Assembly (NCBI RefSeq): GCF_002008315.2
Contig: NZ_MVDG02000001.1
Span: 3,906,001 to 3,970,000, forward strand
DNA: 64,000 bases
Reading direction: 5' to 3'
Origin: Arthrobacter sp. KBS0703
GTDB lineage: Bacteria > Actinomycetota > Actinomycetes > Actinomycetales > Micrococcaceae
Positions 21,305-64,000 of this stretch are shown in pieces. The stretch's first letter is position 1. Each line of letters begins with the position of its first letter. The translations under genes were made by a program, and so were the position numbers. Under the pieces are notes generated by a model that had not been told where the DNA came from, did no database searches, and saw nothing but the letters and a program-made list of their open reading frames with translations.

Positions 21305-23102
21305 ATGGCCGCCCCGGACATTCCCGCAGAGAAGGCACCAGCCTCGAAGCGGCCGCTCATTTTGCGTTACGCCGCCCGTTCCGACGTCGGCCGCATCCGT
21401 GCCAAGAACGACGATTCCGCCTACGTGGGCAGGCATCTCGCCGTCGTGGCCGATGGCATGGGCGGGCACGCCGGCGGTGATGTTGCCTCGGCCGCCACGG
21501 TTCTGGACATGATCCACCTGGACACGGACGAATACCACGGCGACGCCGGTACCGTCCTGGCCGATGAAATCCAGACCGCCAATTCCCTTCTCTCGGAACT
21601 TGTCCACATCAATCCCAAGCTTGCCGGGATGGGTACGACCGTGACGGCCCTGCTACTGGCCGAGGGCAAGCTTCACTTCGCCCACATCGGCGACTCCCGC
21701 GCCTACCGCCTGCGTGATGGTGAATTTGAGCAGATCAGCGTGGACCACACCTTCGTCCAGCGGCTGATCGACGAAGGCCGCCTGCGCCCTGAGGAAGCCG
21801 AAACCCACCCGCATAAGAACGTCCTGATGCGCGTCCTCGGCGACGTCGACGCGAGCCCCGAACTGGACCTCGACACGCTGGAGGTGCAGCCCGGCGAACG
21901 CTGGCTGCTCTGCTCCGACGGCCTGAACTACGTTGCAGGCCACGTCGTGGAGCGGACAGTCCGGGAAACGAAGGACCTCCGCGAATGCGTGGAAACCCTC
22001 GTGGACCTCACCCTCGAGGCCGGCGCCCCGGACAACGTCACCGTCGTCATGGCGGAAATTGTCGAGGAAACGCCCGACGACGTCCGAACCTGTCTCTTAT
22101 ACACATCTAGATGTGTATAAGAGACAGCTCCCGCCGGGGCACCCGGCGCAACGCCCGCTGCCGCCGCCGATCCAGGCGCTGCGGCTCCGGCCGGCCCCGC
22201 AAAACCGGCCGACGCGCCCTGTCTCTTATACACATCTAGATGTGTATAAGAGACAGGCATCCGGGTCCACGGGTGCGCCCGCGAACGATGCTGAACCGCA
22301 TGTCGAAGCGGATGACAAAACGGATGCGGCCGGCACGGAAGATTCCGAATCCGCCCCGGCCAAGGAACCCGGCACCGGCACAGATCCCCATCTGGGCGAA
22401 CACCTATCGGCAGAAGTGCTGCGCCAGGAGCTGTCGTCCAGGCCACACCTCCTGGTCGGCGCAGCGGTAACGGCAGCCGAATCGGGTTCCATTCCCACCA
22501 TTGCAGGCCGCACCGTGGCGCGCCGGGCAGCAACCGTCCTGACCCACAAATCCGAGCAGGACCGCGACGGCACTGAGGAGCCCGGGCCCGAGAGACGTCC
22601 GCGGCGCTGGATCACGATGGGCATCGCGGCGGCCGCGCTTGTGGTCCTCGCCGTCGGCCTGTGGCTGGGGTACGCCTGGACCCAGACCCGCTACTACATC
22701 GGCGAATTCGATCAGCGGGTGGCCATCTTCAACGGCGTTTCACAGCGCCTCGGCCCCATCCAGCTGTCCACGCTGGAGGCGGTCACGGACATCCGGATGG
22801 ATTCCCTGCCCCAGTTCTCCCAGCAACGGGTCCGCCAGACCGTGCCCGCGCGCGATCTCTACGACGCCCAGCGCATCGTCAAAAACCTTGAACGCACGGG
22901 CACCACGGCGCCCTCGGACGAATGTATTACTCCGTCGCCTACCCCGTCCGCATCGCCGCGGGCCACACGCCCTGCAGCCACCGCGAAGCCCACGGCGACC
23001 AGCACTGCAAAGCCGACGGCTGCTGCCACCGCGAAGCCGACCGCTACTGCCGGGGCATCCGCTGCACCCACCCCAACCGCGACCTGTGAGGCGGGCCAAT
23101 GA
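21305..23102 (+). CDS. pstP: PstP: PP2C-family Ser/Thr phosphatase, interrupted in this assembly by two adapter junctions
   Basis: Membrane phosphatase that dephosphorylates PknA/PknB and their substrates. Residues 1-262 form a complete PP2C domain: RSDVGRIRAKNDDSAYVG, VVADGMGGHAGGDVAS, KLHFAHIGDSRAYRLRDGE and APDNVTVVMAEI, with the metal-binding Asp residues. At 22090 an artefactual junction sequence breaks the frame; a second is at 22219. An Ala/Pro linker lies between, and coding resumes from 22257 with a membrane segment (MGIAAAALVVLAVGLWLGYAW) and an extracellular Thr/Ala/Lys/Pro-rich tail to 23102. Removing both junctions puts the two ends in frame, but the linker then reads Arg-rich instead of Ala/Pro-rich, so some bases are lost or gained. 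Confidence 0.88.
22090..22127. other. Mate-pair adapter junction in pstP, first copy
   Basis: CTGTCTCTTATACACATCT followed directly by its reverse complement: two 19-bp Tn5 mosaic ends back to back, 38 bp. Matches the Nextera mate-pair junction. Artefact, not genome. Confidence 0.95.
22219..22256. other. Mate-pair adapter junction in pstP, second copy
   Basis: Same 38-bp head-to-head mosaic-end element, 91 bp after the first. The segment between them codes, in one frame, for an Ala/Pro linker. Confidence 0.95.
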
Positions 23103-32535: not shown

Positions 32536-32815
32536 CACGTCGCCGCCCCCACCTCGGAGGATGGCTGACTCCGGTTCCGCTAGCTCAGGCCGGGCGCAAC
32601 GACGAGCTGCACATCGTCCTCGTACAGGACCGTTCCCGGGTCATCCGAAGCCCACCCATGGGCACCGTCCACACATGTTGGTAACGATATCCACAGTGTG
32701 GATAAGCCGCGGCCCCCGGGCCCACCTGAAAGCCGCGCCAAGGCCTTCGCTGCCACCATTGTTGCGCCAGCGGGTTATTAACAGATGTGGAAAGTCTGTG
32801 GAAAACGTTGCCTGG
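32536..32815. other. Intergenic region with DnaA boxes
   Basis: No ORF. Contains ATATCCACA-G-TGTGGATAA (32687-32705), a perfect DnaA box in an inverted pair, then TGTGGAAAG (32786) and TGTGGAAAA (32797). It lies about 17 kb from oriC. Possible titration or regulatory site. Confidence 0.6.
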
Positions 32816-33289
32816 CTACTCCTGCTTGCGCCGCACCGGGTGCTGGCTGGTGATCGACACCCGGTTGAACGCGTTCATGGCAATGGCCAACCAGCTTACT
32901 GCCGAGTACTGCTCGACCGACAGGTGGTCCCGGGCATAGCCGTCCTCAAGGTCCCGCTCCCGGGCGTCCGGAAGGTTCGTGATGCTCTCTCCCAGGGCCA
33001 GGGCCGCACGCTCGGTGCCGTCAAACAGGGCGGTGTCGCGCCAGGCGGACAGGACTGCGAGGCGCTGCACGGATTCACCGCCTTTCAGGGCGTCAGCCAC
33101 GTGCATGTCCAGGCAATAGGCGCAGCCGTTGATCTGCGAGATGCGGACGTTCAGCAGCTCAATGACCTTGGGGTCCAAACCAGCCTCGAGGGCAGCCTCC
33201 TTGGCCTTCAGTCCCAGGCCGTTCAACGCGCGCCAGGCTGCAGGGTGCTCCTTGTCCAGGAAGACATGTTCGGTGGAGTGGTTACTCAC
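32816..33289 (-). CDS. AhpD-like carboxymuconolactone decarboxylase-family protein
   Basis: 157 aa from GTG 33289, with GAGGAG 8-9 nt upstream; longer in-frame extensions lack a good ribosome site. The AhpD-like core has the redox CxxC and downstream His in INGCAYCLDMHVADALKGGES, plus a helix pair YSAVSWLAIAMNAFNRVSI. Such proteins are probable peroxidatic or disulfide reductases against alkyl hydroperoxides. It stands alone, with DnaA-box clusters on both sides. Confidence 0.88.
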   Translation of the reverse strand: MSNHSTEHVFLDKEHPAAWRALNGLGLKAKEAALEAGLDPKVIELLNVRISQINGCAYCLDMHVADALKGGESVQRLAVLSAWRDTALFDGTERAALALGESITNLPDARERDLEDGYARDHLSVEQYSAVSWLAIAMNAFNRVSITSQHPVRRKQE

Positions 33290-33371
33290 GGGATACTCCT
33301 CGCAACATCGGGCCACGACCTCCGGGGTCCACGTGGCTGGCAACTCATCCGAGACTACACGCGGAGCGAAG

Positions 33372-33841
33372 TTATCCACTTAGCAACAGGCAGCTTCCCA
33401 CAGGTTATCCACAGATGGGGATAACCTGTGGGATATCTGTGGGCGATCGCCGCGATGTAGGCCTTCACAGCACGCGTTTGTCGCGAACTACATGCATGTA
33501 AGTTATTAACACTGTGAATAACCCTGTTGAAAATGTGTGCTGCCGGTCCGGTTCGTCATGGGTTCACCGGCTGTTCCATCCCGCATAAGCCGGGCTTCAC
33601 GCCGCCGTGGTGGGGACAGGAGCGTCCAGAACTGATAGATCGCCTTCCGGCACCGCGGAGCGTGGTCGTCCCGTCAAAGTTGTCCACTTAACCACAACTC
33701 CGCCGTGGCGGGTTATCCACATGTGTGGACGCCGCAGACCCCCGGAGCGCAAGAACCGCCAGTCCGCGCGGAATTTGGGCCGTCGAATGTTGAACTACAG
33801 CCGTGTAAGTTACCAACAGTGTGGATAACCCCTGTGGAAAA
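33372..33841. other. DnaA-box-rich intergenic region
   Basis: About 690 bp (33290-33981) without a gene. Perfect boxes TTATCCACA at 33405-33413 and 33713-33721, and TGTGGATAA at 33820-33828. Near matches include TTATCCACT (33372), TGGGGATAA (33416), TGTGAATAA (33513) and TGTGGAAAA (33833). Together with 32687-32805 this is as box-dense as oriC itself, yet 16-17 kb away and far from dnaA. Confidence 0.65.
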
Positions 33842-33857
33842 CCCGTTAAAACCAGAA

Positions 33858-33881
33858 ACCCCGCCTCGGACGAAGCGGGGT
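33858..33881 (-). terminator. Probable terminator of the rhomboid gene
   Basis: ACCCCGC (33858-33864) and GCGGGGT (33875-33881) around a 10-nt loop; on the minus strand it is followed by a T-rich stretch (TTTCTGGTTTT). About 100 bp after the rhomboid stop. Confidence 0.65.
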
Positions 33882-49108: not shown

Positions 49109-49635
49109 GGAAGGGTGCCGCCTTTCATTGCTGCTGCCATTTTCTGAACGGGAACTCCTGCGTGGAGTCCACAAAACCGTTGCTCCCGGAACACCGGAAC
49201 CTGCATGGTCCGCACTTGCTGGACCACTGGAAGACCCGAGGATGGGAGCGCTGCTGACAGCTTAGCCGGAACATCGGGGATTTCCCCATCCCCGTCAATG
49301 ACCTCGGCCCCTCGGGGGCAGGGGCCCGGAGTCGTGTGGGGCAGGGAACGAGATTGTTGTTTGAGGGAATTTCAATTTTTTGGGATTAGTAGTGTTAATA
49401 ACTGCTGTGGAAACTGTGGATAACCCCGTCCCACTGCTGGAATCCGCGGTTAAGCCCTGTTCATGGACTGTGGGCGGAGCACGTTTTAAACAGGCTGTGG
49501 ATGGGGATAACATTTTTGGCCGTTTCCGTGATCCACAGACACCTTAAGGGTTTTAAGCCCATTAACCGCGGTTGTCCCCTTAACTGTCCACAGGGTTATC
49601 CACACGTGCCTGTTAATAAGGTTAAGAACCGCGGG
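49109..49635. other. oriC: oriC, dnaA-dnaN intergenic part
   Basis: 527 bp without a gene. Perfect DnaA boxes TGTGGATAA (49415-49423) and TTATCCACA (49596-49604), with near matches at 49406, 49496, 49502, 49531 and 49583. The AT-rich stretch around 49363-49402 (ATTTCAATTTTTTGGGATTA, then TTAATAACT) is the best candidate for the unwinding element. This is the usual origin position in actinobacteria. Confidence 0.85.
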
Positions 49636-51057
49636 TCAGGAGTCGCGCTGCTGCTGCTTGATCCGGTTGGTCAGCTCGGTGACCTGGTTGTAGATCACAC
49701 GGCGCTCAGCCATAAGCTCGCGGATCTTGCGGTCGGCGTGGATCACCGTGGTGTGGTCCCGGCCGCCGAGTTCCTGGCCGATCTTGGGCAGCGACATGTC
49801 CGTCAGCTCGCGGCACAGGTACATCGCGATCTGACGGGCCGTGACCAGCGTCCGGGTCCGTGACTTGCTGCAGAGCTCTTCCATGCTGAGCTTGAAGTAC
49901 TCGGCCGTCTGCGTCAGGATCTGGCTCGAGGTGATCTCCTGCGCGCCGTCATCGGTGATGAGGTCCTTGAGGACCATCTCGGCCAGGGCAACATCCACCG
50001 GCTGGCGGTTGAGGCTGGCGAAGGCCGTGACGCGGATGAGGGCGCCTTCGAGTTCGCGGATGTTGCTGGAGATCTTGGAAGCGATGTATTCCAGGGCGTC
50101 GTCCGGAGCGGAGAGACCTTCGCTGAGGGCCTTCTTCCGGAGGATGGCGATGCGGGTTTCGAGTTCCGGCGGCTGGATGTCGGTCAGCAGGCCCCACTCG
50201 AAGCGCGACTTCATGCGGTCCTCGAAGCCGGCCAGCAGCTTGGGCGGCTGGTCGGACGTGATCACAACCTGCTTGTTGTTGTTGTGCAGGGAGTTGAAGG
50301 TGTGGAAGAACTCCTCCAGGGTCCGGTCCTTGCCGGCGAGGAACTGGATGTCATCGATCAGCAGCACATCCACGTTGCGGTACGTGGTCTTGAAGCTGGC
50401 GCCCTCATCGTCACGGATCGAGTTGATGAAGTCGTTGGTGAATTCCTCGGAGTTCACGTACCGGACGCGGATGCCGCTGTAGAGGCGCCGGGCGTAGTGG
50501 CCGATCGCGTGCAGCAGGTGGGTCTTGCCCAGTCCGGAGTCGCCGTAAATGAACAGCGGGTTGTAGGCCTTCGCGGGCGCTTCGGCCACCGCCACGGCGG
50601 CGGCATGGGCGAACCGGTTCGATGAGCCGATCACGAAGGTGTCAAAAACGTACTTGGGATTCAACCGGCCGAACTCGTGGGAAGTGCTCGGCAGCATGGG
50701 CTGCGGCTTCAGTTCCACCGACGGGTCGGCAGCGAGGGAAAGCTCGACGGCGGGTTCCGGCTCTTCGTGGACGGGCACCAGATCGGTGTCAACGTCGATG
50801 GCGCAGCGGATGTCGTCTGAGAAAACATTGCGGAGCGCGTCGTCGAGTGCGTCCTTGACCTGGGTCTGCAGCACTTCCCTGGTGAGTTCATTGGGCACGG
50901 CCACGAGGAGGGTGGAACCGATGAGGCCCTGCGCCTGGGCCAGGATGACAAAGCCGCGCTGCCTCGGGGAAACACGGTCGTCCTGCTCAAGAAGGGTCAC
51001 CACGCGCCGCCAGGAACTTCCGACAGTATTGGCGTGGTTGGCTTCGTCTACTGTCAT
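49636..51057 (-). CDS. dnaA: Chromosomal replication initiator protein DnaA
   Basis: 473 aa from ATG 51057 (GAGGAACC just upstream). The N-terminal domain ([23 protein letters not shown]) is joined by an acidic linker to the AAA+ module: [23 protein letters not shown] (Walker A), [18 protein letters not shown] (Walker B), and the arginine-finger region. The C-terminal DNA-binding domain has [33 protein letters not shown], the DnaA-box helix-turn-helix. It is flanked by box-rich noncoding DNA on both sides. Confidence 0.98.
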
Positions 51058-51527
51058 CAATCGGGTTCCTCAAAGCTTGCTTACCTGCATTACATGCAGC
51101 CGCAAGCCTGGATCCAGGGTGCTGTCCCGGCTTCATCCACAGGGTTATGCACAGTCCGTGGATAATCGGCTACTGGGCCACTCTAGGGGATGAAAAGGCC
51201 AGAAGATAGCTGGGAAGTGGCTTGTGGATAATTACACCGTTGTGGTTCGAAAAAGGGGCTTGTGACCCACTTCATCCACAGGCTGGGGACACCGGTTAGC
51301 CACAGTTGGGGAAAGGTGGCGGGCCACCTCCCGGTTTGACTCGGGGTCGCAGTTTGGCCTAACGTTGTGGAGTCCTTTGTGCCTGCTTTCTGACCCCATT
51401 TTGACCTTCCAGACGCCCAGCGTTCCGGGAAATCGGGGGAAGCAGACACATACAAAACTTAGCGTCGGCCAGTTCTTCCCCTTTTTTGATCGGGTGGGCG
51501 CACCTTTGATCCACTGGAGTAACTAAC
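51058..51527. other. oriC-associated rpmH-dnaA intergenic region
   Basis: 470 bp, no ORF. Perfect TGTGGATAA at 51223-51231; near matches TTATGCACA (51145), CGTGGATAA (51168) and several ATCCACA/AGCCACA elements. Carries divergent promoters for dnaA and rpmH and probably forms the second half of the origin. Confidence 0.8.
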
Positions 51528-54817: not shown

Positions 54818-55870
54818 GTGACCAGTAGCGAAACCTCCACGCAGCGGATCCCCCCGTTCGTGTCCTTGGGGTCGGCGCGCGCCTTTGGTGTACCCTCGGT
54901 CGCTATGGCTTCGAATCACTTGAATTCGGTTGCGGTCCTGAACGCGTCGAAGGTTTCACGTGAAACACCGGCCACCGGCAACGTACTGGACACCTTGGAC
55001 GACTCAAGCCCCATCGCCCGCGAACTTGCGCATGAGAACAAGCGCCGGGAGAGGCTCCTGGGCCGCAATCTCCCGAAGCCCGAGAAGACCCGCATCTTCA
55101 CAGTCTCAAACCAAAAAGGTGGCGTGGGGAAGACCACCACCACGGTCAACATCGCAGCCGCACTGGCTGCCGCCGGGCTGAACGTCCTCGTTATCGACAT
55201 CGACCCGCAGGGAAACGCTTCCACCGCGCTGGGCATCGAACATCATGCTGAAGTCGACAGCATCTACGACGTCCTGATCAATGACATGGCGCTGGAGGAC
55301 GTCGTGGCTCCGTGCCCCGACATCAGCAACCTCATTTGTGCTCCTGCCACTATTCACTTGGCAGGCGCCGAAATCGAACTGGTGTCCCTCGTGGCCAGGG
55401 AGCAGCGACTCCGCCGAGCCATCGACGTTTACGCCAAGTCCCGCCAGAAAAAGGGCGAAGAACGCCTGGACTACATTTTCATCGACTGCCCGCCGAGCCT
55501 TGGCCTGCTGACGGTGAACGCATTCTGTGCTGCGGGCGAGGTCCTGATCCCCATTCAGTGCGAATATTATGCGCTGGAAGGCCTCAGCCAATTGCTGAAG
55601 AACATCGAGATGATCCAGAAGCATTTGAATGCTGATCTTGAAGTTTCCACCATTCTGCTGACCATGTATGACGGCCGGACCAACCTGGCCGCGCAGGTGG
55701 CCGCGGAGGTCCGCCAACATTTCCCGGACCAGGTGCTGGGTGCCGTTGTCCCGCGCTCTGTGCGCATTTCCGAGGCACCCAGCTATCAGCAGACGGTCAT
55801 GACGTACGATCCATCCTCCAGCGGCGCCCTTTCCTATCTGGAAGCCGCAGCGGAAATCGCTGAGCGCTAG
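54818..55870 (+). CDS. parA: Chromosome-partitioning ATPase ParA
   Basis: 350 aa from GTG 54818. An unstructured N-terminal extension of about 90 residues, typical of actinobacterial ParA, precedes the deviant Walker A ATPase: [35 protein letters not shown], and the Walker [16 protein letters not shown]. It drives ParB-parS segregation. A perfect parS palindrome lies inside the coding sequence at 54953-54966, where it is read as VSRET. Confidence 0.96.
54953..54966. other. parS: parS site inside parA
   Basis: Perfect GTTTCACGTGAAAC, the ParB-binding palindrome, embedded in coding DNA. Confidence 0.95.
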
Positions 55871-55937: not shown

Positions 55938-57164
55938 ATGAGCGATAAGCGACGCGGGCTCGGTCGCGGTCTTGGCGCACTCATACCAAGTTCCGCCTCC
56001 ACCAACGCTGCGGGTAGCGGAACAGCGCCGTCACGCCCCGTGGACCTTTTCTTTCCGGAAGCGCGCAAGTCTGCGCCCGCAGAGGCTGATACCGCTGTTG
56101 AACCCTCGACCACCACGCCCGGCCGCTCTTCCGAATCCAAGGGTTCTGCAGCTGCCGGCACCGGAGAGACGACCGAGAAGACCGTGGACAAGCGGCGACC
56201 GGCTGCTTCCGCCTCGAAGTCCGAGCCTGCTGCGGCGACCCCGGTGAAGCCCAAGGGTGATGTGTCCGCCGAGGATGGTGCCGGATCGGAAGATGCTCCA
56301 GTAGGGGGCCTGCGTGCGGCCGGCAACGACGTCGAACTTGTTGAGGTCCCGGGTGTCCGGTTTGCCGAAATCCCCGTTGGTGATATCCACCCCAACCGTA
56401 AACAGCCCCGTACCGTCTTCGATGAGGACGATATGGCAGAGCTGATTCACTCAGTTCGGGAAATAGGCGTTCTCCAGCCAATTGTGGTGCGTACCTCAAC
56501 CGAAAAAGGTGGCGAACCTTATGAACTCGTCATGGGCGAGCGCCGATGGCGGGCGGTTCAGGCCGCAGGCTTGGATACGATTCCCGCAATCGTCCGTGAC
56601 ACCACCGATGACGACCTGCTTCGCGACGCACTCCTGGAAAACCTGCACCGCAGTCAGCTCAACCCGCTCGAAGAGGCCGCTGCCTACCAGCAGCTCCTCG
56701 AGGACTTCGGCACAACTCATGAGCAGCTCGCTGACCGCATCGGCCGCTCGCGCCCGCAGGTGTCGAACACGCTCCGCCTGCTCAAGCTGCCACCGCTGGT
56801 ACAGCGCCGCGTGGCCGCCAACATCCTCTCCGCAGGGCACGCTCGGGCACTGCTGTCATTGCCGGACGCGGCAGCCATGGAACGCCTTGCACAGAAGATT
56901 GTGGCCGAGGGCATGTCCGTGCGAGCCACGGAGGAAGCGGTGACCCTCCATCGTGAGCCTGCCGCACCGGCGAAGAACAACATTCCCCGCCCCGGTGCGC
57001 GCCACGAACGCCTGGATTATCTCGCTTCCTCACTTTCCGATCGTCTTGATACAAACGTGAAGATTTCGTTGGGCGCGCGAAAAGGTCGCGTTAGCATCGA
57101 GTTCGCCAGCGTGGAAGATCTGAACCGAATCATGGATGTGTTGGCCCCTGGGGCCGAGAACTAG
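55938..57164 (+). CDS. parB: Chromosome-partitioning CTPase/DNA-binding protein ParB
   Basis: 408 aa. The ParA-contacting start is [20 protein letters not shown] long Ala/Ser/Thr/Pro linker follows (about residues 25-120). The CTP-binding domain has [35 protein letters not shown] (GERRxR box) and [21 protein letters not shown]. The parS-reading HTH is [24 protein letters not shown]. The C-terminal dimer domain ends at 57164. It loads at parS and spreads; nine parS sites lie directly downstream. Confidence 0.96.
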
Positions 57165-57180
57165 GAATTCCGCACTACCG

Positions 57181-57208
57181 AGGGCCCGTTTCACGTGAAA
57201 CGGGCCCT
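57181..57208 (+). terminator. 28-bp perfect palindrome after parB: parS plus terminator stem
   Basis: The parS core (57188-57201) is extended on both sides by AGGGCCC/GGGCCCT to a 28-bp perfect palindrome 17 bp after the parB stop, followed by TTTCCTTTT. In RNA this is a strong hairpin with a 4-nt loop and a U-rich tail, so the site could serve both ParB binding and termination. Confidence 0.7.
57188..57201. other. parS: parS site
   Basis: Perfect GTTTCACGTGAAAC within the parB terminator palindrome. Confidence 0.95.
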
Positions 57209-58099
57209 TTCCTTTTGCCCAGAGTGTTCCGAACTGGCCACTGCCCGGTGGAACTGTTGCTCGCTGGCGGGGCCGAGTCGGTCGATCAAGGTCGCGGCCT
57301 CTCCGTGACTGCGCAGCCAGGCAACTGATCGCATTTGTCGGCATCGCCGCCATACCGTCGCGTGCCGCGGTCTTTGCCGGTGCAGGCTGGCACCTTTGAT
57401 GCGTTCCATTTTGAAGTTGCGGGAAGTGTTTCGGTGGACAGCATTTCCAAAGAACAACAAGCGCGTCTGAGTTTACGGGGTGAGCGGATGCATACGAGAC
57501 CGCTACCAGGCAGGCCGTTGCCTGGTTCGTGCACGGCGCTGAGGTGCCCAAATGGGCTGCAGGGCCAATTTTTCTGTCTCCGTTGGTGTCCGAATCTGTC
57601 ACTCTCTGCGTATCCAAGGCCGTTCAGCGGGCGTCGGAAACCTTACGGATCGACACAACCGCAGTCTGACCCGCACCCGATTGCCCTTCTAGTTCGGGGG
57701 CTAGGCACCTATCAGCCGCGTCGCAAAGTGCTGGCGGTCCTCCGAGTCGCCGGGACTGGTCTTCCACTTGCGGCTTTCCGAGCATGTTGGGGCTGCCCAG
57801 CGCATTTCGTACTCCGGGTAGCCTCGAAATGCCGCCACACTGCTCCTCGCGGGTGCAACGCGCAGCGGTCCACGTAGTCGCGACGTGGCCCTCTGTGCTT
57901 CCGCCGGCGAGGGCATAGAGGATCTCGTGGCTGCTTGCCTTGGGCGCAGACAGTGTCTACCAGCCGCGATCGTCTTCGGGGTGCGGGCCGGCTATACAGG
58001 ACGTCCGGACCGGCCTCGGGAGCGGCGTGGCCGCTGGATTCCTCTGTTCGGGGCGTCGTTTGCTGCGGAGAGGCGTAATCCATGTGGCTCCCCCAGGTT

Positions 58100-58113
58100 G
58101 TTTCACGTGAAAC
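58100..58113. other. parS: parS site
   Basis: Perfect GTTTCACGTGAAAC, flanks T and G. Confidence 0.95.
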
Positions 58114-58230
58114 GGTCCTATCCGGGTCCGAAATTCGGGCGTCCCAACTTCGTGCCAGGTAGCACCGGATCACATCGGCCCTCGCGGGGCGATTGGCTGT
58201 TCGACTCCGAAACGAACACAAAGTTTGCAC

Positions 58231-58248
58231 CCTTCCCTCGAGGGAAGG
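58231..58248. repeat. 18-bp perfect palindrome in the desert
   Basis: CCTTCCCTCGAGGGAAGG, unlike parS or a DnaA box. Role unknown; could bind a dimeric protein. Confidence 0.5.
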
Positions 58249-58636
58249 AACGCTATCAGCGGTCTACACACGATGCCGGCGACGATCGCACGTCTATGTG
58301 GAGGCGTCGGAACGGCGGAAATGCTCATGGTCGGACCGTCTGGTTCGCGAGAGACCTCCACCGTGTCTACAGGGTGGTGGATCGCGGTGCCGTGCGCCCC
58401 GCCAGCGAACGACAGTCAGGAAGATGGCCGGGCATACACGCCAACGGACGGGCCGCCCTCGGGCCGCCATGCCTGCCTTCGGACTGCTATCGGGGGTGCA
58501 GCAGCGTCTGCTCCCGTCTCCCAGTCGTCCAGCGCTCTGGCGGCCCAGGACTCTCAACCCTGCGGAAACTTGGACGTACGAGATTGCTGCAGGAAGTCTT
58601 TCGGCTATGGAACGCCGTGAGTGCTCTAGCTTGCCG

Positions 58637-58660
58637 TCGCAGGATCGCAGGATCGCAGGA
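58637..58660. repeat. Three tandem octamers
   Basis: TCGCAGGA three times in a row. Short tandem repeat in noncoding DNA. Confidence 0.7.
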
Positions 58661-59221
58661 TTGCCACAAGTCATGGGACTGCACCATCGCCAGCCGGGTG
58701 CGTTCCGTGCCGGCCGCATAGGCGCGATTCGAACCAGGACGATCTTGCTGGCGGTCCTGGAAAACCGGCAGGCCGTGAATCATCGTAAATGAACCGTCTC
58801 GTCTAAGGCGTGGGGACGGTGCCCTCCATTGCGCTGATAGCCTCCGAGGACGCCTGTCGCGACAGTCCCGGCTTCGATGCCGCGGGAGTTGTTGCGCGAT
58901 CGAAGGATCCTGTCGCCGGCCCAGAGGACTCCGAGCACGGTACTGCCCGTCGAACATGGAGAGTCCCTTGGGCGCTGAGCTCGTCTGGCGGGGCGCGGCC
59001 AAAGCTGCCAACGGCGGGACGCTCAGACGGAGACCTACGGATCGACGCCCCTGTATCCATGGCGCGCATCACCGAGTTCGCACTCCCCGGCACGTGCTGC
59101 TGTTCACGGCTCTGTCCTCTGCCCGCGTGGCATACTGGGCCGCTGGCCGTCCTTGGAACCCCTCACCCGTATCAGAGGGGCCGTGTGAGTGCGGAGCGGC
59201 CACGAGGGACCGGAGGCAGAG

Positions 59222-59235
59222 GTTTCACGTGAAAC
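59222..59235. other. parS: parS site
   Basis: Perfect GTTTCACGTGAAAC, flanks G and C (16-bp palindrome). Confidence 0.95.
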
Positions 59236-59401
59236 CCTAGTAGCCGGATGGTCGCTCTGGTCATTGCCAAGCCCGATGCATCTGTAGTTCCCTCGGCGGT
59301 AGAGCACGACGGTCATCCACCATGGTGCAGGGAGCTTCAACCAGCGCACGTCGGCTCTCGCTTCCCGCAAGGACAGTGGCTTCGCCGCCCTGGATACCGA
59401 C

Positions 59402-59415
59402 GTTTCACGTGAAAC
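59402..59415. other. parS: parS site
   Basis: Perfect core, extended to the 20-bp palindrome GACGTTTCACGTGAAACGTC, 180 bp from the previous site. Confidence 0.95.
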
Positions 59416-59640
59416 GTCCGTGCGGCCGACGCGGGCGTACCGAGAGGACTGGACGGGTCAGGCGACTACGTAGACCGACCACACCACTCGGCGCTAGTCC
59501 ACAGACTCGTTGTCGGTGCGTTCACTCCCCTGCCTCTTGACGTCGTGAGTAGTGGCTCATATTTGATCTCATGATCGTCATAGCGACAGGTGGTGGCAAC
59601 GCGCTCTGTCTGAAGGTGTCCATCATGGGGTTTATCGTGG

Positions 59641-59664
59641 AGTCCAGGAGTCCAGGAGTCCAGG
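59641..59664. repeat. Three tandem octamers
   Basis: AGTCCAGG three times, followed by degenerate copies (AATCCAGA, then ATCCAG). Short tandem repeat in noncoding DNA. Confidence 0.7.
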
Positions 59665-59927
59665 AATCCAGAATTGCGGAATCCAGCTCCCGCCTCTCGG
59701 TGCGGGTCAGTTGATCGGTGTCCGGACCCGGCCTTGCAGCCATGCCCGCATTCCTCCCAGATGATCGTGTTTGGTGGGTCATCCAGGAATGACGGTGCTT
59801 CCGTAGAGACAGCATACGATCCGAAAACTTGCCGCGATGTGCGACCCTCGTTCGAAGCTGACCAGAGACGGGCCTCGCCAGGGGTCTAGCAGCGACGTCG
59901 AGAGGTCACCGTGGGGGCTGTTGGGCC

Positions 59928-59987
59928 AGTGGATATTGCGGTGGATATCACGGTGGATAAACCTGTGGATAACTCTGTTGGTAACGA
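59928..59987 (+). repeat. Array of five 12-bp DnaA-box-like repeats
   Basis: Units: AGTGGATATTGC, GGTGGATATCAC, GGTGGATAAACC, TGTGGATAACTC, TGTTGGTAACGA. The fourth starts with a perfect DnaA box (59964-59972). Strict 12-bp spacing. Read as protein it would give VDIAVDITVDKPVDNSV, but no credible gene surrounds it. Confidence 0.7.
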
Positions 59988-60080
59988 GCCCCGCCCGGTT
60001 CGCCCGGATGGTTAGACAATTGAGCAGACTGGCGCAACGCCGAGTTCGGGTTAGGTGCCCTTTCCCGGTGTCGGCTTCGT

Positions 60081-60094
60081 GTTTCACGTGAAAC
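60081..60094. other. parS: parS site
   Basis: Perfect 16-bp TGTTTCACGTGAAACA. Confidence 0.95.
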
Positions 60095-60321
60095 AGGCAG
60101 GCCGCGAAATATCGAGACCGGAGACTTGCAAGATATTGAGAAATACGGCGTGAGTTTAAGCGGAATCAGTTTATTTTCCTTGGTACCAGGCGAGGCGGCG
60201 GATCGGAACAGGAAAGCGGTCCCCACGCCAGTCCCGGAACTGGCCTTCGGGTGCCCCACCCCGGCGCCGTATCGGTTTCCCTTTCCGGGTCCGACGTGAC
60301 ACAATGCGCGCCGGATACCAT

Positions 60322-60369
60322 TGTGGAAAAGTCTGTGGATACTGCTGTGGATAAGACTGTGAATAATGT
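60322..60369 (+). repeat. Array of four 12-bp DnaA-box-like repeats
   Basis: Units: TGTGGAAAAGTC, TGTGGATACTGC, TGTGGATAAGAC, TGTGAATAATGT. The third starts with a perfect DnaA box (60346-60354). Same 12-bp period as the array 394 bp upstream. Confidence 0.7.
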
Positions 60370-61868
60370 CATGCTGCGCCTGTGGGAAAGTTCACGACTC
60401 AGGCGTGCAGCGGGAGGCTCAGCGGTCGCCGACTACTGACTTGATCCTGTCAGTTGATGCTGCCCGCACGAGTGCATCCATCGCGAAGCCGCAAACGCAC
60501 AACCGAAGATCCCGAGTGCGGAGCCGTTTCCCGTGGCGACGCCGCCGTTCGCGACGGAATCCCATGCAGGCGAATACACATGTTCTGGTCGCTATGCTCC
60601 AGTCGGGAATGCTGGCTTGTCGCCGCGTAGCGGTAGACCAAATCCGCGATGACCGTGGTCCCTCGCGCGCTGATTGGTGGAAAGGGCAGTGGATCTCCCA
60701 GGCAGTGTTGAGGCCACTGGGCACGAGTGCGTGTGGGGCTGGGCCTGTGACCTGCGAAGGACACCCAGTGTATGGACTAGGGCATGGACTGACGCCGACT
60801 ATGATGCGACTGCTGAACCGGCTGACTCGTGAGCAGCTTAGCGCCGATGCCTCCTCGGATGCTGACGGGCTGCATCAATATGGAACCCGGCAGAGAAGCG
60901 ACTGGGTGGACAGCAGCGGGCAGCGGGCGGCGGGCAACAGGCAGTGGGCGGGGCGTTATGTGGAGGTACGCCGGTGCGTGCCTCAGTTGTCGATGGTTGG
61001 GTGCGTCAGAGAAGACTTCCGGCCGACGGGTGGGTCTCTTTCGGTGATGTGTCCTTGATGCGCCGAGGACGGCCCGGTTAGTAGGCGCGCCGAAGACCAA
61101 GCCCCGTTCACGAGCCCGGAGAGACATCGGCAGTCCCGCACCGGAACTATTCGACACTGTCCGCGGAGACCAGAGCCCCTAGGACTCCGCTCGGGGGCAC
61201 GACGCCGCCGTCCGGGTATGTACCTAGGCTTCCTGGCCTCTCTCAAGGCAGTGCTGGCAGATGGCCGGTTGGCATGTCGCCCCCGCTTCGTTCCGCTTCT
61301 TGTAGTGGGCCTGGTTCTTTTGTGGCACTGCGTGTGGCAGCTAATTCCGGGATAGTGGAATCGGCCCCTTGTGCCGCAGCGCCTATTGGTGGCAGCTGCA
61401 TCTACCGGTGAGGGCCGCCCTTGCGCTGGTCGGTGCATCATGCCCGATGCCCCACCTAGCTGCAATAGCCGCCCGGCGCCTCCTAGGAGATGCTCTTAGG
61501 AGGTGCCAGCCTCCAGCTGTGAGACCGACGCCCCAACGATATGGGCCACGCCGATGGGACAGTACGGTGGCGGTCAATCGTGGTGTTCCGGTACATATGC
61601 ATCCGCGCCACATGGAGTGGCTGTTGTCTTGGCTAGGCGAACGGCTCGACGTAGGGGCATGGACTTGGAGAGCCCAATTACGGAGCCGCTGCCGACTGAG
61701 CCAGTGACGCGCTCAGTTTCCCGATGATATGGCGTTGCCCGCGATGCAACCGCACGCAACAGTGGATGTAGCCCATACACTGGAGCCGCTTGTCTCATGC
61801 CTCAGCGCAGGTGCAGGCCCTCCGTCTTAGACGCTGATGTGGTCCACGAGGATCGCCACACGATCACC

Positions 61869-61882
61869 GTTTCACGTGAAAC
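61869..61882. other. parS: parS site
   Basis: Perfect GTTTCACGTGAAAC, flanks C and A. Confidence 0.95.
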
Positions 61883-61996
61883 AGCGACCGATCGCGACCC
61901 AGGTTTTGCCCCGCTGATCCATGAGTACCGTACCGACGGGAAATCATCGACTCCGGCACCCTACCCACCGCCGGGCCACCGTTGGGGAATTAGCAT

Positions 61997-62010
61997 GTTT
62001 CACGTGAAAC
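61997..62010. other. parS: parS site
   Basis: Perfect 16-bp TGTTTCACGTGAAACA, 128 bp after the previous site. Confidence 0.95.
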
Positions 62011-63022
62011 AACGCGTGCCTTGTGGTGTTGCCTAACTGCCAGACTGCTGGCCCCTGGGGTCCTGTGGTGGCTCTCGCATCGCCACTTCGTATATGCGGC
62101 TCACGAATGAAGCCTCTTCGTAGCACTTTGGCCAGTTCCAGGGAGGACCATGGTGTCTCAGAAGATGATGGGTGGTCCGGTGATCTTTTCGACTGGAATG
62201 GCCAGCTCGTTTGCAGAATCTGCTTCTGAACTGTCGCCTACGTGGAGGTGACTCCATGATGGACGCCCAGGCTCCTACGCGAACTGTGCGTACCGTCGCG
62301 GGTACGAAGCGGTCGGACTAGCAAATAGGTATCCACCAGCGGGTCGAGAGCGTCGAGTCCTCCTTGCAGTCCCTTCAGCTCTGCCCTCTGAGTGGCTACC
62401 GGAAGGGGACCTGGGCCTGGCCAGCTCGCCCACTCGGCGTGCCGGATGACCGCCGGCCCAAGGGGCGGAAGTCCCGGCCTCTCCAGCTGCTTCTGAAGGA
62501 AAGTGAGGAGAAATGTCTAGGCAGGAAGCCCGGCGATTGATTTGGCGTTGGCCACCTAGGCTCCCGAACCCGGTCCACTGGGGACCAGGTAGCGGCCTCA
62601 AATGTGCTGGTCGACCGGATAGGCGTCCCTGACGGTTGTCCAATCATCTGAAATGAGTTGTATGTCATTGGTTTCCGGATTTGCTCCCATAGACCGCGGG
62701 GCCGCTCGATGGGGGCGGCCTTTTCCCGCGAGCCGCTCAGGCGCGGACCGTGCGCTTGTCGCGACTTGTGGGTCCCTCTGTGGCTGGCGCGTTCCCAATG
62801 CCAGGATCCCATTGTTGGTGTGCCTACCTGCGGGAGGAGGGGCGACGGCTGATGTGGGAGCCCGGGATTCGGTAGGGCGGGTGGTCAAAGGGAGGGGACG
62901 CCGCCGAACTGGTGTGGCCCGCATTCACCGGCTGCGGGCTCGCATGGTCGTTGCCGGTTTAAAGACGCGCCCGGTTCAAGGAATCGAACATCTTCGTTGG
63001 TAGTCGCGCAGGAGGCCCGCAT

Positions 63023-63036
63023 GTTTCACGTGAAAC
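63023..63036. other. parS: parS site
   Basis: Perfect core within the 20-bp palindrome CATGTTTCACGTGAAACATG. Confidence 0.95.
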
Positions 63037-63436
63037 ATGGATTCGACAACCGCTAATTCCTCCTGCCGGCCGAATCGCGCAGGAGCGCGAAAACTACGAC
63101 GCGTTCGTACGAAGTGCTGATGTTTTCGGACCTCACAATCGGTCGCTCGACGGTGGCGTGCCATGCTCGCAGATCCGGGCGATGTGCAGCCATGGCCGGT
63201 GAGAACGCCGTGGAGGAAGCTGTGCAGGAATATGCAGAGAACGTGGGGTAGTGCCTGGGGATGTCGGTGGAGCCTCTGGGGTGGCAGAGTGGAGACTCGG
63301 CACTCCGCCCGATCCTGCGCATAATTCAGCCGGCGGCGACCAGCATGGTGCTCTTTGGCACTTTCTTAGGTTAGAGTATCGAATCGCCGCCCTGGGTACG
63401 AACCACTTTGATAGGGACGAGGGACCGGCGTGCGAT

Positions 63437-63450
63437 GTTTCACGTGAAAC
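63437..63450. other. parS: parS site
   Basis: Perfect GTTTCACGTGAAAC, flanks T and G; the last of the cluster in this window. Confidence 0.95.
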
Positions 63451-63894
63451 GAACTGCACCCACCACTGCAACCTGTGTAGGTACTCATGCATTGACGGCT
63501 ATGCACGTCGGAGGCCATGAAGCAAGCCATCCCAGCCGTACCGCTGGCCAATGCTAGTGGCAGCGGACGTCTGAAGTCTATCCTGCGAAAATATAGACGA
63601 TGCACAACGGATAATCGTTGCACTTGAGGGTGGATTGGGCACAAGAGAGCCGACCCGGCCCACGGGCTTACGACCGTGCGGTGCGGCAGCTGTCCGCAGA
63701 AGAAGAACGCAGCCGACAGCACCCCAACCGCAGTCCGAGCAAAGCCTGTACTGGCAGGAGATTAGTCCAAGGAAGGCCGGACACGTGGAAGGCCTCGATC
63801 GAATGACGCCCAGTGAAAATCCGCACGCCCCGAGAAAATGTGCCGGCCCCGTGACAAGTCACCGCCTGGGTCCACTTCCCCGGTTCAAACAAAA

Positions 63895-63925
63895 GTGGCC
63901 ACCACTCCCCTGGAGTGGTGGCCAC
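63895..63925 (-). terminator. Rho-independent terminator of a minus-strand gene entering from the right
   Basis: Perfect 14-bp arms (63895-63908, 63912-63925) with a 3-nt loop; on the minus strand TTTTGTTTG follows. It marks the right edge of the desert and implies a minus-strand gene ending within or beyond 63926-64000. The visible 75 bp do not let me choose its frame. Confidence 0.75.
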
Positions 63926-64000
63926 CGGTCCGTCTCCGTCTCAGCTGCCTGTCTCAGCGTCAGCCGAGCAGCGCCGTCGGCTATCCCGTTAGAGAAGTAC

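Follow-up and report, generated by a model that had tools for sequence, protein, structure and literature searches.

What does a tract of almost 7 kb without recognizable genes, dotted with ParB-loading sites, do beside the replication origin of an actinobacterium? The question is raised by the interval between parB and trxA of Arthrobacter sp. KBS0703, which was analyzed within a stretch of 64,000 nucleotides of contig NZ_MVDG02000001.1 (hereafter the window, with positions counted from its first nucleotide). The interval, which we call the desert, occupies 57165-64000 of the window and runs on to 64008 (L005:10008), 6844 bp in full, at about 6 to 13 kb from dnaA. It contains nine parS sites and no defensible gene. 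It also contains, in its middle, two DnaA-box arrays on the same strand, phased at 12 bp and with a parS between them, which a sequence-only reading of this DNA had missed. Our preferred explanation is that the interval would be a centromere that loads ParB and incorporates a DnaA platform, coupling replication initiation to segregation as in Caulobacter, and on the sequence evidence we give this an even chance of being right.

Clusters of parS near oriC are textbook knowledge. The nine exact copies of GTTTCACGTGAAAC claimed by the sequence-only reading were all found where it had placed them (9/9), on the + strand at 57188-57201, 58100-58113, 59222-59235, 59402-59415, 60081-60094, 61869-61882, 61997-62010, 63023-63036 and 63437-63450. 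Its two further statements also held: no copy occurred in 100 dinucleotide shuffles, so that such sites are not expected by chance, and the coordinates give an irregular spacing of 128-1788 bp. A tenth exact copy lies on the + strand inside the parA coding sequence (54953-54966). Allowing up to two mismatches in the window, or up to one in the whole 4.86-Mb assembly, added no other site, and the ten exact parS of the assembly (10/10) fall within 8.5 kb, at distances between 3.9 and 12.4 kb from the dnaA start. Judged by their family domains, the DnaA, ParA and ParB of this genome are standard, and by analogy with the family ParB almost certainly loads at this array. Every genus genome surveyed (61/61) carries 6-12 exact parS. 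When three pairs of relatives were aligned, parS positions were identical at 100, 99 and 98%, against 77, 55 and 53% for the other non-motif positions and only 80, 64 and 50% for the ten bases on each side of the sites. The 14-mers are thus maintained while the DNA between them drifts, the pattern that the sequence-only reading had proposed to look for, and the sites are under selection.

The two DnaA arrays form, with what lies between them, a module of about 440 bp. Array 1 (59928-59985, +) consists of five DnaA-box-like units in 12-bp steps, with an exact box at 59964-59972, and TTATCCACA reads on the - strand. Array 2 (60322-60366, +) consists of four such units, also in 12-bp steps, with an exact box at 60346-60354. 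The parS at 60081-60094 lies 117 bp away from the exact array 1 box and is separated from array 2 by an A+T-rich tract (60101-60185, 43.5% G+C in a desert of 61.8% G+C). Clustered boxes of the TTATCCACA type exceed chance in the desert, and a search of the genome for 12-bp-phased triples with up to three mismatches returned only the two arrays and one weak triple in the dnaA-dnaN spacer. Given the identity of the boxes, their phasing and the standard DnaA, binding of DnaA to these arrays is likely.

The same elements emerge from the genus without being sought by name. A DNA search with the desert matched 80/206 genus genomes, mainly in the two array islands and otherwise through short segments at parS sites and near the trxA end. 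When the 9-mers of 30 genus deserts (156 kb in all) were screened blindly, with only words found in at least 15 of the 30 being ranked, the enriched words were all parS or DnaA-box words and no further conserved motif was seen among the ranked 9-mers; TGTGGATAA was counted 67 times, with 0.5 expected, and was present in 30/30 deserts. One genus desert, L036, was omitted from this screen and from the skew and G+C analysis owing to its length.

Comparison across the family was based on 77 loci fetched from 32 genera, 75 of them with parB and 73 also with trxA in reach. The genus is represented by 49 measured intervals (31 and 18 loci in a first and a second set), among which no identical or near-identical pair is left, the duplicates L207, L209, L214 and L247 and the loci L203 and L219 (no trxA) having been omitted. 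In these 49 deserts exact DnaA boxes were found 105 times in one orientation and 0 times in the other, with at least one per desert. An exact box lies 80-150 bp before an exact parS in 40/49, and 24 of the 41 distances within that range measure 115-118 bp. In 41/49 the exact boxes fall into two distinct groups, 322-392 bp apart in 40 of these. Of the 111 unit spacings below 20 bp, 107 are of exactly 12 bp. The arrangement of TGTGGATA at 96-126 bp before parS was recovered in 159/206 genus genomes; in a family sample of 395 genomes it was found in 59/77 of the genus against 5/318 others, three of these five belonging to genus g7. In 5/8 pairs of genomes, conservation of the module outside its motifs exceeded that of any other desert window.

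How DnaA boxes and a ParB-loading site could work together is suggested by Caulobacter crescentus, in which DnaA is reported to bind in the parS region and to make partitioning possible (Mera 2014, described in the review PMC6399470). DnaA boxes inside the parS region, which are the mark of a Caulobacter-type centromere, are found here as well, and both systems place DnaA sites within an origin-proximal parS region as far as that account describes it. The present locus differs in belonging to an actinobacterium, in its two 12-bp-phased arrays on one strand, in its gene-free tract and its nine parS, and in being known from sequence. We propose that the interval would serve as the centromere of the chromosome in an Arthrobacter lineage of genus rank, with identical ParB-loading sites in non-coding DNA and, in mid-desert, a separate conserved module made of a DnaA array, a parS, an A+T-rich tract and a second DnaA array. 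DnaA would be expected to polymerize one way over the 12-bp-phased boxes that flank the ParB-loading site. Early in the cell cycle, its activity could then influence the partition complex, or DnaA could be influenced by the ParB/ParA complex, and initiation at oriC would thereby be coupled to release and movement of the centromere. Coupling to segregation is favoured because of the near-fixed distance to parS and of the Caulobacter precedent; the binding of DnaA and ParB here, their interaction and the purpose of coupling are presumed, while the sites themselves, with their phasing, orientation, spacing, conservation and clade distribution, are observed.

Several observations weigh against this proposal. 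The module is not unusually conserved outside its motifs in 3/8 pairs; among the five positive ones, L054/L220 and L205/L062 are so strongly diverged that parS itself aligned at only 59 and 47%. Under a strict setting (three units, up to four mismatches, first set of 31 genus deserts) a phased array was obtained in 27/31 deserts and two arrays in only 12/31. No exact box lies 80-150 bp before an exact parS in 9/49 genus deserts. Between the arrays, L045, L046 and L093 have no exact parS and that of L052 has one mismatch; outside the genus, g7 L143, Sinomonas L218 and g19 L109 have none there either. The arrays are thus independent of an intervening parS, since L143, L218 and L109 carry them without one. 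Most other sampled genera have parS clusters and no arrays in their deserts. Finally, a region rich in DnaA-box-like sites at 32650-33880, about 16-17 kb from dnaA on its other side, also contains short conserved elements.

These observations bear on a close rival of coupling, according to which the arrays would be a DnaA-control locus, acting by titration or by nucleotide-state switching in the manner of datA or DARS, and the parS would be a mere neighbour, non-coding DNA being available near oriC. The datA and DARS loci of Escherichia coli, and DnaA-box clusters of other bacteria, are non-coding loci outside oriC that control DnaA, and the arrays resemble them in being a non-coding DnaA-box locus outside oriC; we know of no datA/DARS-type locus inside a parS array. 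The persistence of arrays without an intervening parS in some genus loci, in g7, in Sinomonas and in one g19 locus speaks for a DnaA-control locus. So do the retention of canonical oriC boxes in the genus and the second DnaA-box region, which has matches in 41/41 genus genomes sampled: its conservation means that DnaA loci near oriC need not concern segregation. (Part of what matches there looks like a gene.) Titration, however, needs no set distance to parS, and roughly one genus desert in two has the box-parS distance of 115-118 bp. On balance we regard DnaA control as a possible, somewhat doubtful explanation.

The distribution of the arrays suggests when this arrangement arose. In the non-genus deserts of at least 1 kb (64 intervals, some genomes being included twice, e.g., L100/L225 and L101/L226), exact boxes were found only in one g7 locus, in Sinomonas and in three g19 loci, where they stand 11 to 0 in the genus orientation; four more non-genus loci have one 8-base partial box each. 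No exact box was found in the sampled deserts of other genera outside the genus and its sister groups. In a ParA-ParB-TrxB tree of 56 tips, 10 of them genus loci, the array-bearing genomes form one clade with a support of 0.96. Because they do, the arrays appear to have been gained once. A bolder version of the coupling proposal is that one Micrococcaceae clade might have gained, once and independently of Caulobacter, a composite centromere that holds a ParB-loading site, at a near-constant distance, between two one-directional DnaA filaments, and through which the initiator would directly gate segregation; we put this forward tentatively, as less probable than its opposite. Few cis-elements are known that tie replication initiation and segregation together. 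A module of this size, with a recurring geometry and present genus-wide and in a few sampled sister-group loci, makes coupling directly testable.

Two other known systems help to place the coupling proposal. Corynebacterium glutamicum is described in PMC7083940 as having ten parS that cluster to one side of oriC and load ParB and SMC; nine of these are intergenic. The present genome likewise has ten parS clustered on one side of oriC and mostly intergenic; those of C. glutamicum extend over 35 kb, 73 kb from oriC, whereas here the ten occupy 8.5 kb next to parAB. The main text of that paper does not contain the word "DnaA" (0 occurrences). At rctA/parS2 of Vibrio cholerae chromosome II, a centromere locus also binds a replication initiator, in this case RctB on a secondary chromosome (PMC6399470, in the part consulted). 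Among the matches listed in a search of open-licence PMC papers, we found no report of DnaA boxes in the parS region of Arthrobacter or its relatives. Clustered parS near oriC and DnaA at the Caulobacter centromere are thus known, and arrays of the Arthrobacter type seem to be unreported among those matches.

Two DnaA clusters around an A+T-rich tract also recall a replication origin, and the module could be the main origin or a second one. The presumed oriC has DnaA-box-like sites in the spacers flanking dnaA (49415-49604 and 51133-51304). Bipartite origins are made of two DnaA-box clusters, one with an unwinding element (PMC4285127, in the part seen), and the module resembles them in its twin DnaA groups 322-392 bp apart and its A+T-rich part. 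The G+C dip after the module parS is genus-wide and modest: the 40-bp minimum is 0.424, against 0.465 at 262 other parS. The lowest-GC window of the desert, however, falls 0-260 bp after the module parS in only 9/40 modules, with 1.9 expected. As to the sequence of the tract, only a loose enrichment of ATTTT-type words was seen over the 40 modules.

GC skew speaks against an origin at the module. In 28 of the 30 deserts, those with an anchor, mean skew was +0.030 left of the module (25/28 positive) and +0.046 right of it (28/28 positive), and these 28 deserts showed no origin-type sign switch at the module. Forks travelling rightwards through the entire desert would give positive skew on both sides. 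Over 384 kb of G122, a complete genome, the cumulative skew is lowest in dnaN, beside dnaA and 9 kb before the parB stop. Some points remain in favour of an origin: skew right of the module is slightly above that on the left (p 0.01), and in the 400 kb around our own locus the minimum is reached 88 kb past the parB stop, where it fits neither dnaA nor the module. The 4-fold skew of 12 flanking genes is ambiguous. Taken together, GC skew favours an origin near dnaA, no origin is placed by it at the module, unlike in bipartite oriC, and an origin in the desert was rejected on this ground; we consider it very unlikely. A weakened canonical oriC in the genus was also considered and dropped, its boxes being retained (23 genus loci compared with 42 others).

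That the desert is free of genes, as first claimed, is borne out. No open reading frame (ORF) scored as coding with a model trained on the window: the best one (62 aa, 60251-60439) reached 0.019 per codon, the 5% quantile of the training genes being 0.162. The same kind of model misses parB (0.010 per codon) and is not decisive alone; the further tests concur. Ten chosen desert ORFs had no Pfam match at E ≤ 1, no Rfam or ARAGORN (tRNA) match was obtained within the desert, and in three pairs of relatives substitutions within the desert lacked the kind of codon periodicity seen in parB. Over 400 kb, no gaps between predicted genes are longer than the desert halves of 3569 and 3086 bp, which only the marginal 62-aa ORF separates; the third longest measures 1824 bp. 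Along 56 aa this ORF resembles L200 at 54%, and it overlaps array 2. A tblastn search against 48 other deserts matched 6/102 ORFs of at least 30 aa, mostly in L200.

Could the desert nevertheless be an artefact, made of unannotated or decayed genes or of an assembly chimera? The resemblance of the 62-aa ORF to L200 and the six tblastn matches are what can be said for hidden genes. Against them, all but one of these six ORFs overlap the DnaA module, and the mismatches of the 62-aa ORF to L200 fall evenly over codon positions (24, 21, 24), for which reason it and array 2 were discarded as a small coding sequence. Genes in the desert were rejected because none was supported by the coding model, by Pfam, Rfam or tRNA searches, by the conservation of proteins or by the tests of codon positions. 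For a chimera one could invoke adapter joins elsewhere in the assembly; no Nextera mosaic-end sequence occurs inside the desert and the same gene order recurs in independent assemblies, so that the suspicion of a chimera, which the sequence-only reading had itself raised, is not borne out. An artefact of either kind is hardly conceivable. The mosaic-end sequences found elsewhere (window positions 22090, 22219, 26961, 27181, 39580, 39836, 45561 and 45630, and L005:13655) are mostly head-to-head pairs, i.e., adapter joins left in the assembly, and ORFs at two of these places give MCIRDR-type peptides.

The desert is ordinary for its genus and not special to this genome. The 49 genus intervals measure 3.9-13.2 kb and contain 5-11 parS, and 47/49 have no coding-like ORF. 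The two exceptions answer in part the question of whether relatives carry real genes here: they do in these two loci, the remaining 47 being gene-free by the coding model. The interval of L036 (G032), at 13.2 kb, includes four genes with EamA, FMN_bind_2, B3/4 and GNAT Pfam domains. That of L202 (Arthrobacter sp. MA-N2) has, inside the DnaA module, a 332-aa ORF which by eye is like an IS3-type transposase; IS3-type transposase-like ORFs extend there over L202:13434-14884, between the module parS and array 2. Over the family, parB and trxA are convergent in 73/73 loci, and in other genera the interval ranges from 70 bp to 14.3 kb. Its length correlates with the number of parS (Spearman 0.70 for 73 loci, 0.74 for 42 non-genus loci); these interval counts omit L053 and L056, in which the first site is far from parB, and L064 and L099, which have no trxA within reach. 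In 10/73 loci the interval is below 400 bp, with 0-1 parS inside and 2-5 upstream. At least 11/35 of these upstream parS lie inside the aligned parA or parB, the other 24 not being placed, and the idea that all upstream sites of short-interval relatives are coding was therefore abandoned. Because short-interval relatives keep their parS, and L036 and L202 carry genes, the gene-free state is typical of the genus and is neither needed for parS nor strictly kept. Within the family, centromeres form a natural series that begins with short gaps and sites located in par genes and ends with long gene-free tracts.

The sequence-only reading had taken the desert for a plain parS or SMC-loading tract from which selection may exclude genes, letting ParB clamps slide unhindered; on that view the DnaA arrays would be incidental. 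SMC loading here would be expected from ParB biology. Its description of an origin-proximal parS cluster of a chromosomal ParABS system in non-coding DNA stands; its explanation for the absence of genes is not supported, in view of the ten intervals below 400 bp and of the genes in L036 and L202. The rise of parS number with interval length would agree with such a tract. The 47 intervals without a coding-like ORF agree with it too, as judged by a model that misses parB, and so do the two terminator-like hairpins that face inward and close the desert ends. On the other side stand the parS upstream of short intervals, the inserted genes, the exact DnaA box present in 49/49 genus deserts, and the simple point that longer intervals give sites more room. 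All considered, a plain desert is unlikely.

The genes around the desert are identified by the domains of their products: parA (54818-55870, +; Pfam AAA_31 and CbiA), parB (55938-57164, +; ParB_N, HTH_ParB and ParB_C) and dnaA (49636-51060, -; Bac_DnaA and Bac_DnaA_C). On the opposite side, trxA (-) ends at 64009 and converges with parB (+). The parS inside the aligned parA was found in 31/31 loci with an interval in the first genus set, L005 included, while L211, of the second set, has no parS upstream. In 16/75 loci, all non-genus (L098, L100-L103, L112, L146, L148-L151 and others), a parS lies instead 833-857 bp before the parB stop, inside the aligned parB coding sequence in 15/16; genus loci have the parA site in its place.

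The hairpin behind parB (57180-57209, +) holds the parS 57188-57201 within its stem, and that on the trxA side (63926-63894, -) has a 15-bp stem. They have the longest stems of the 5 matches that a hairpin scan gave in the region, against 4.8 in shuffles. A stem extended by at least five pairs is frequent at the parB-proximal parS of the genus (17/21, against 10/368 other parS), and a T-rich tail accompanies it in 9/21, against 1/368. The parB-proximal parS of other genera also have long stems in 24/32 cases, in 5/32 with a T-rich tail too.

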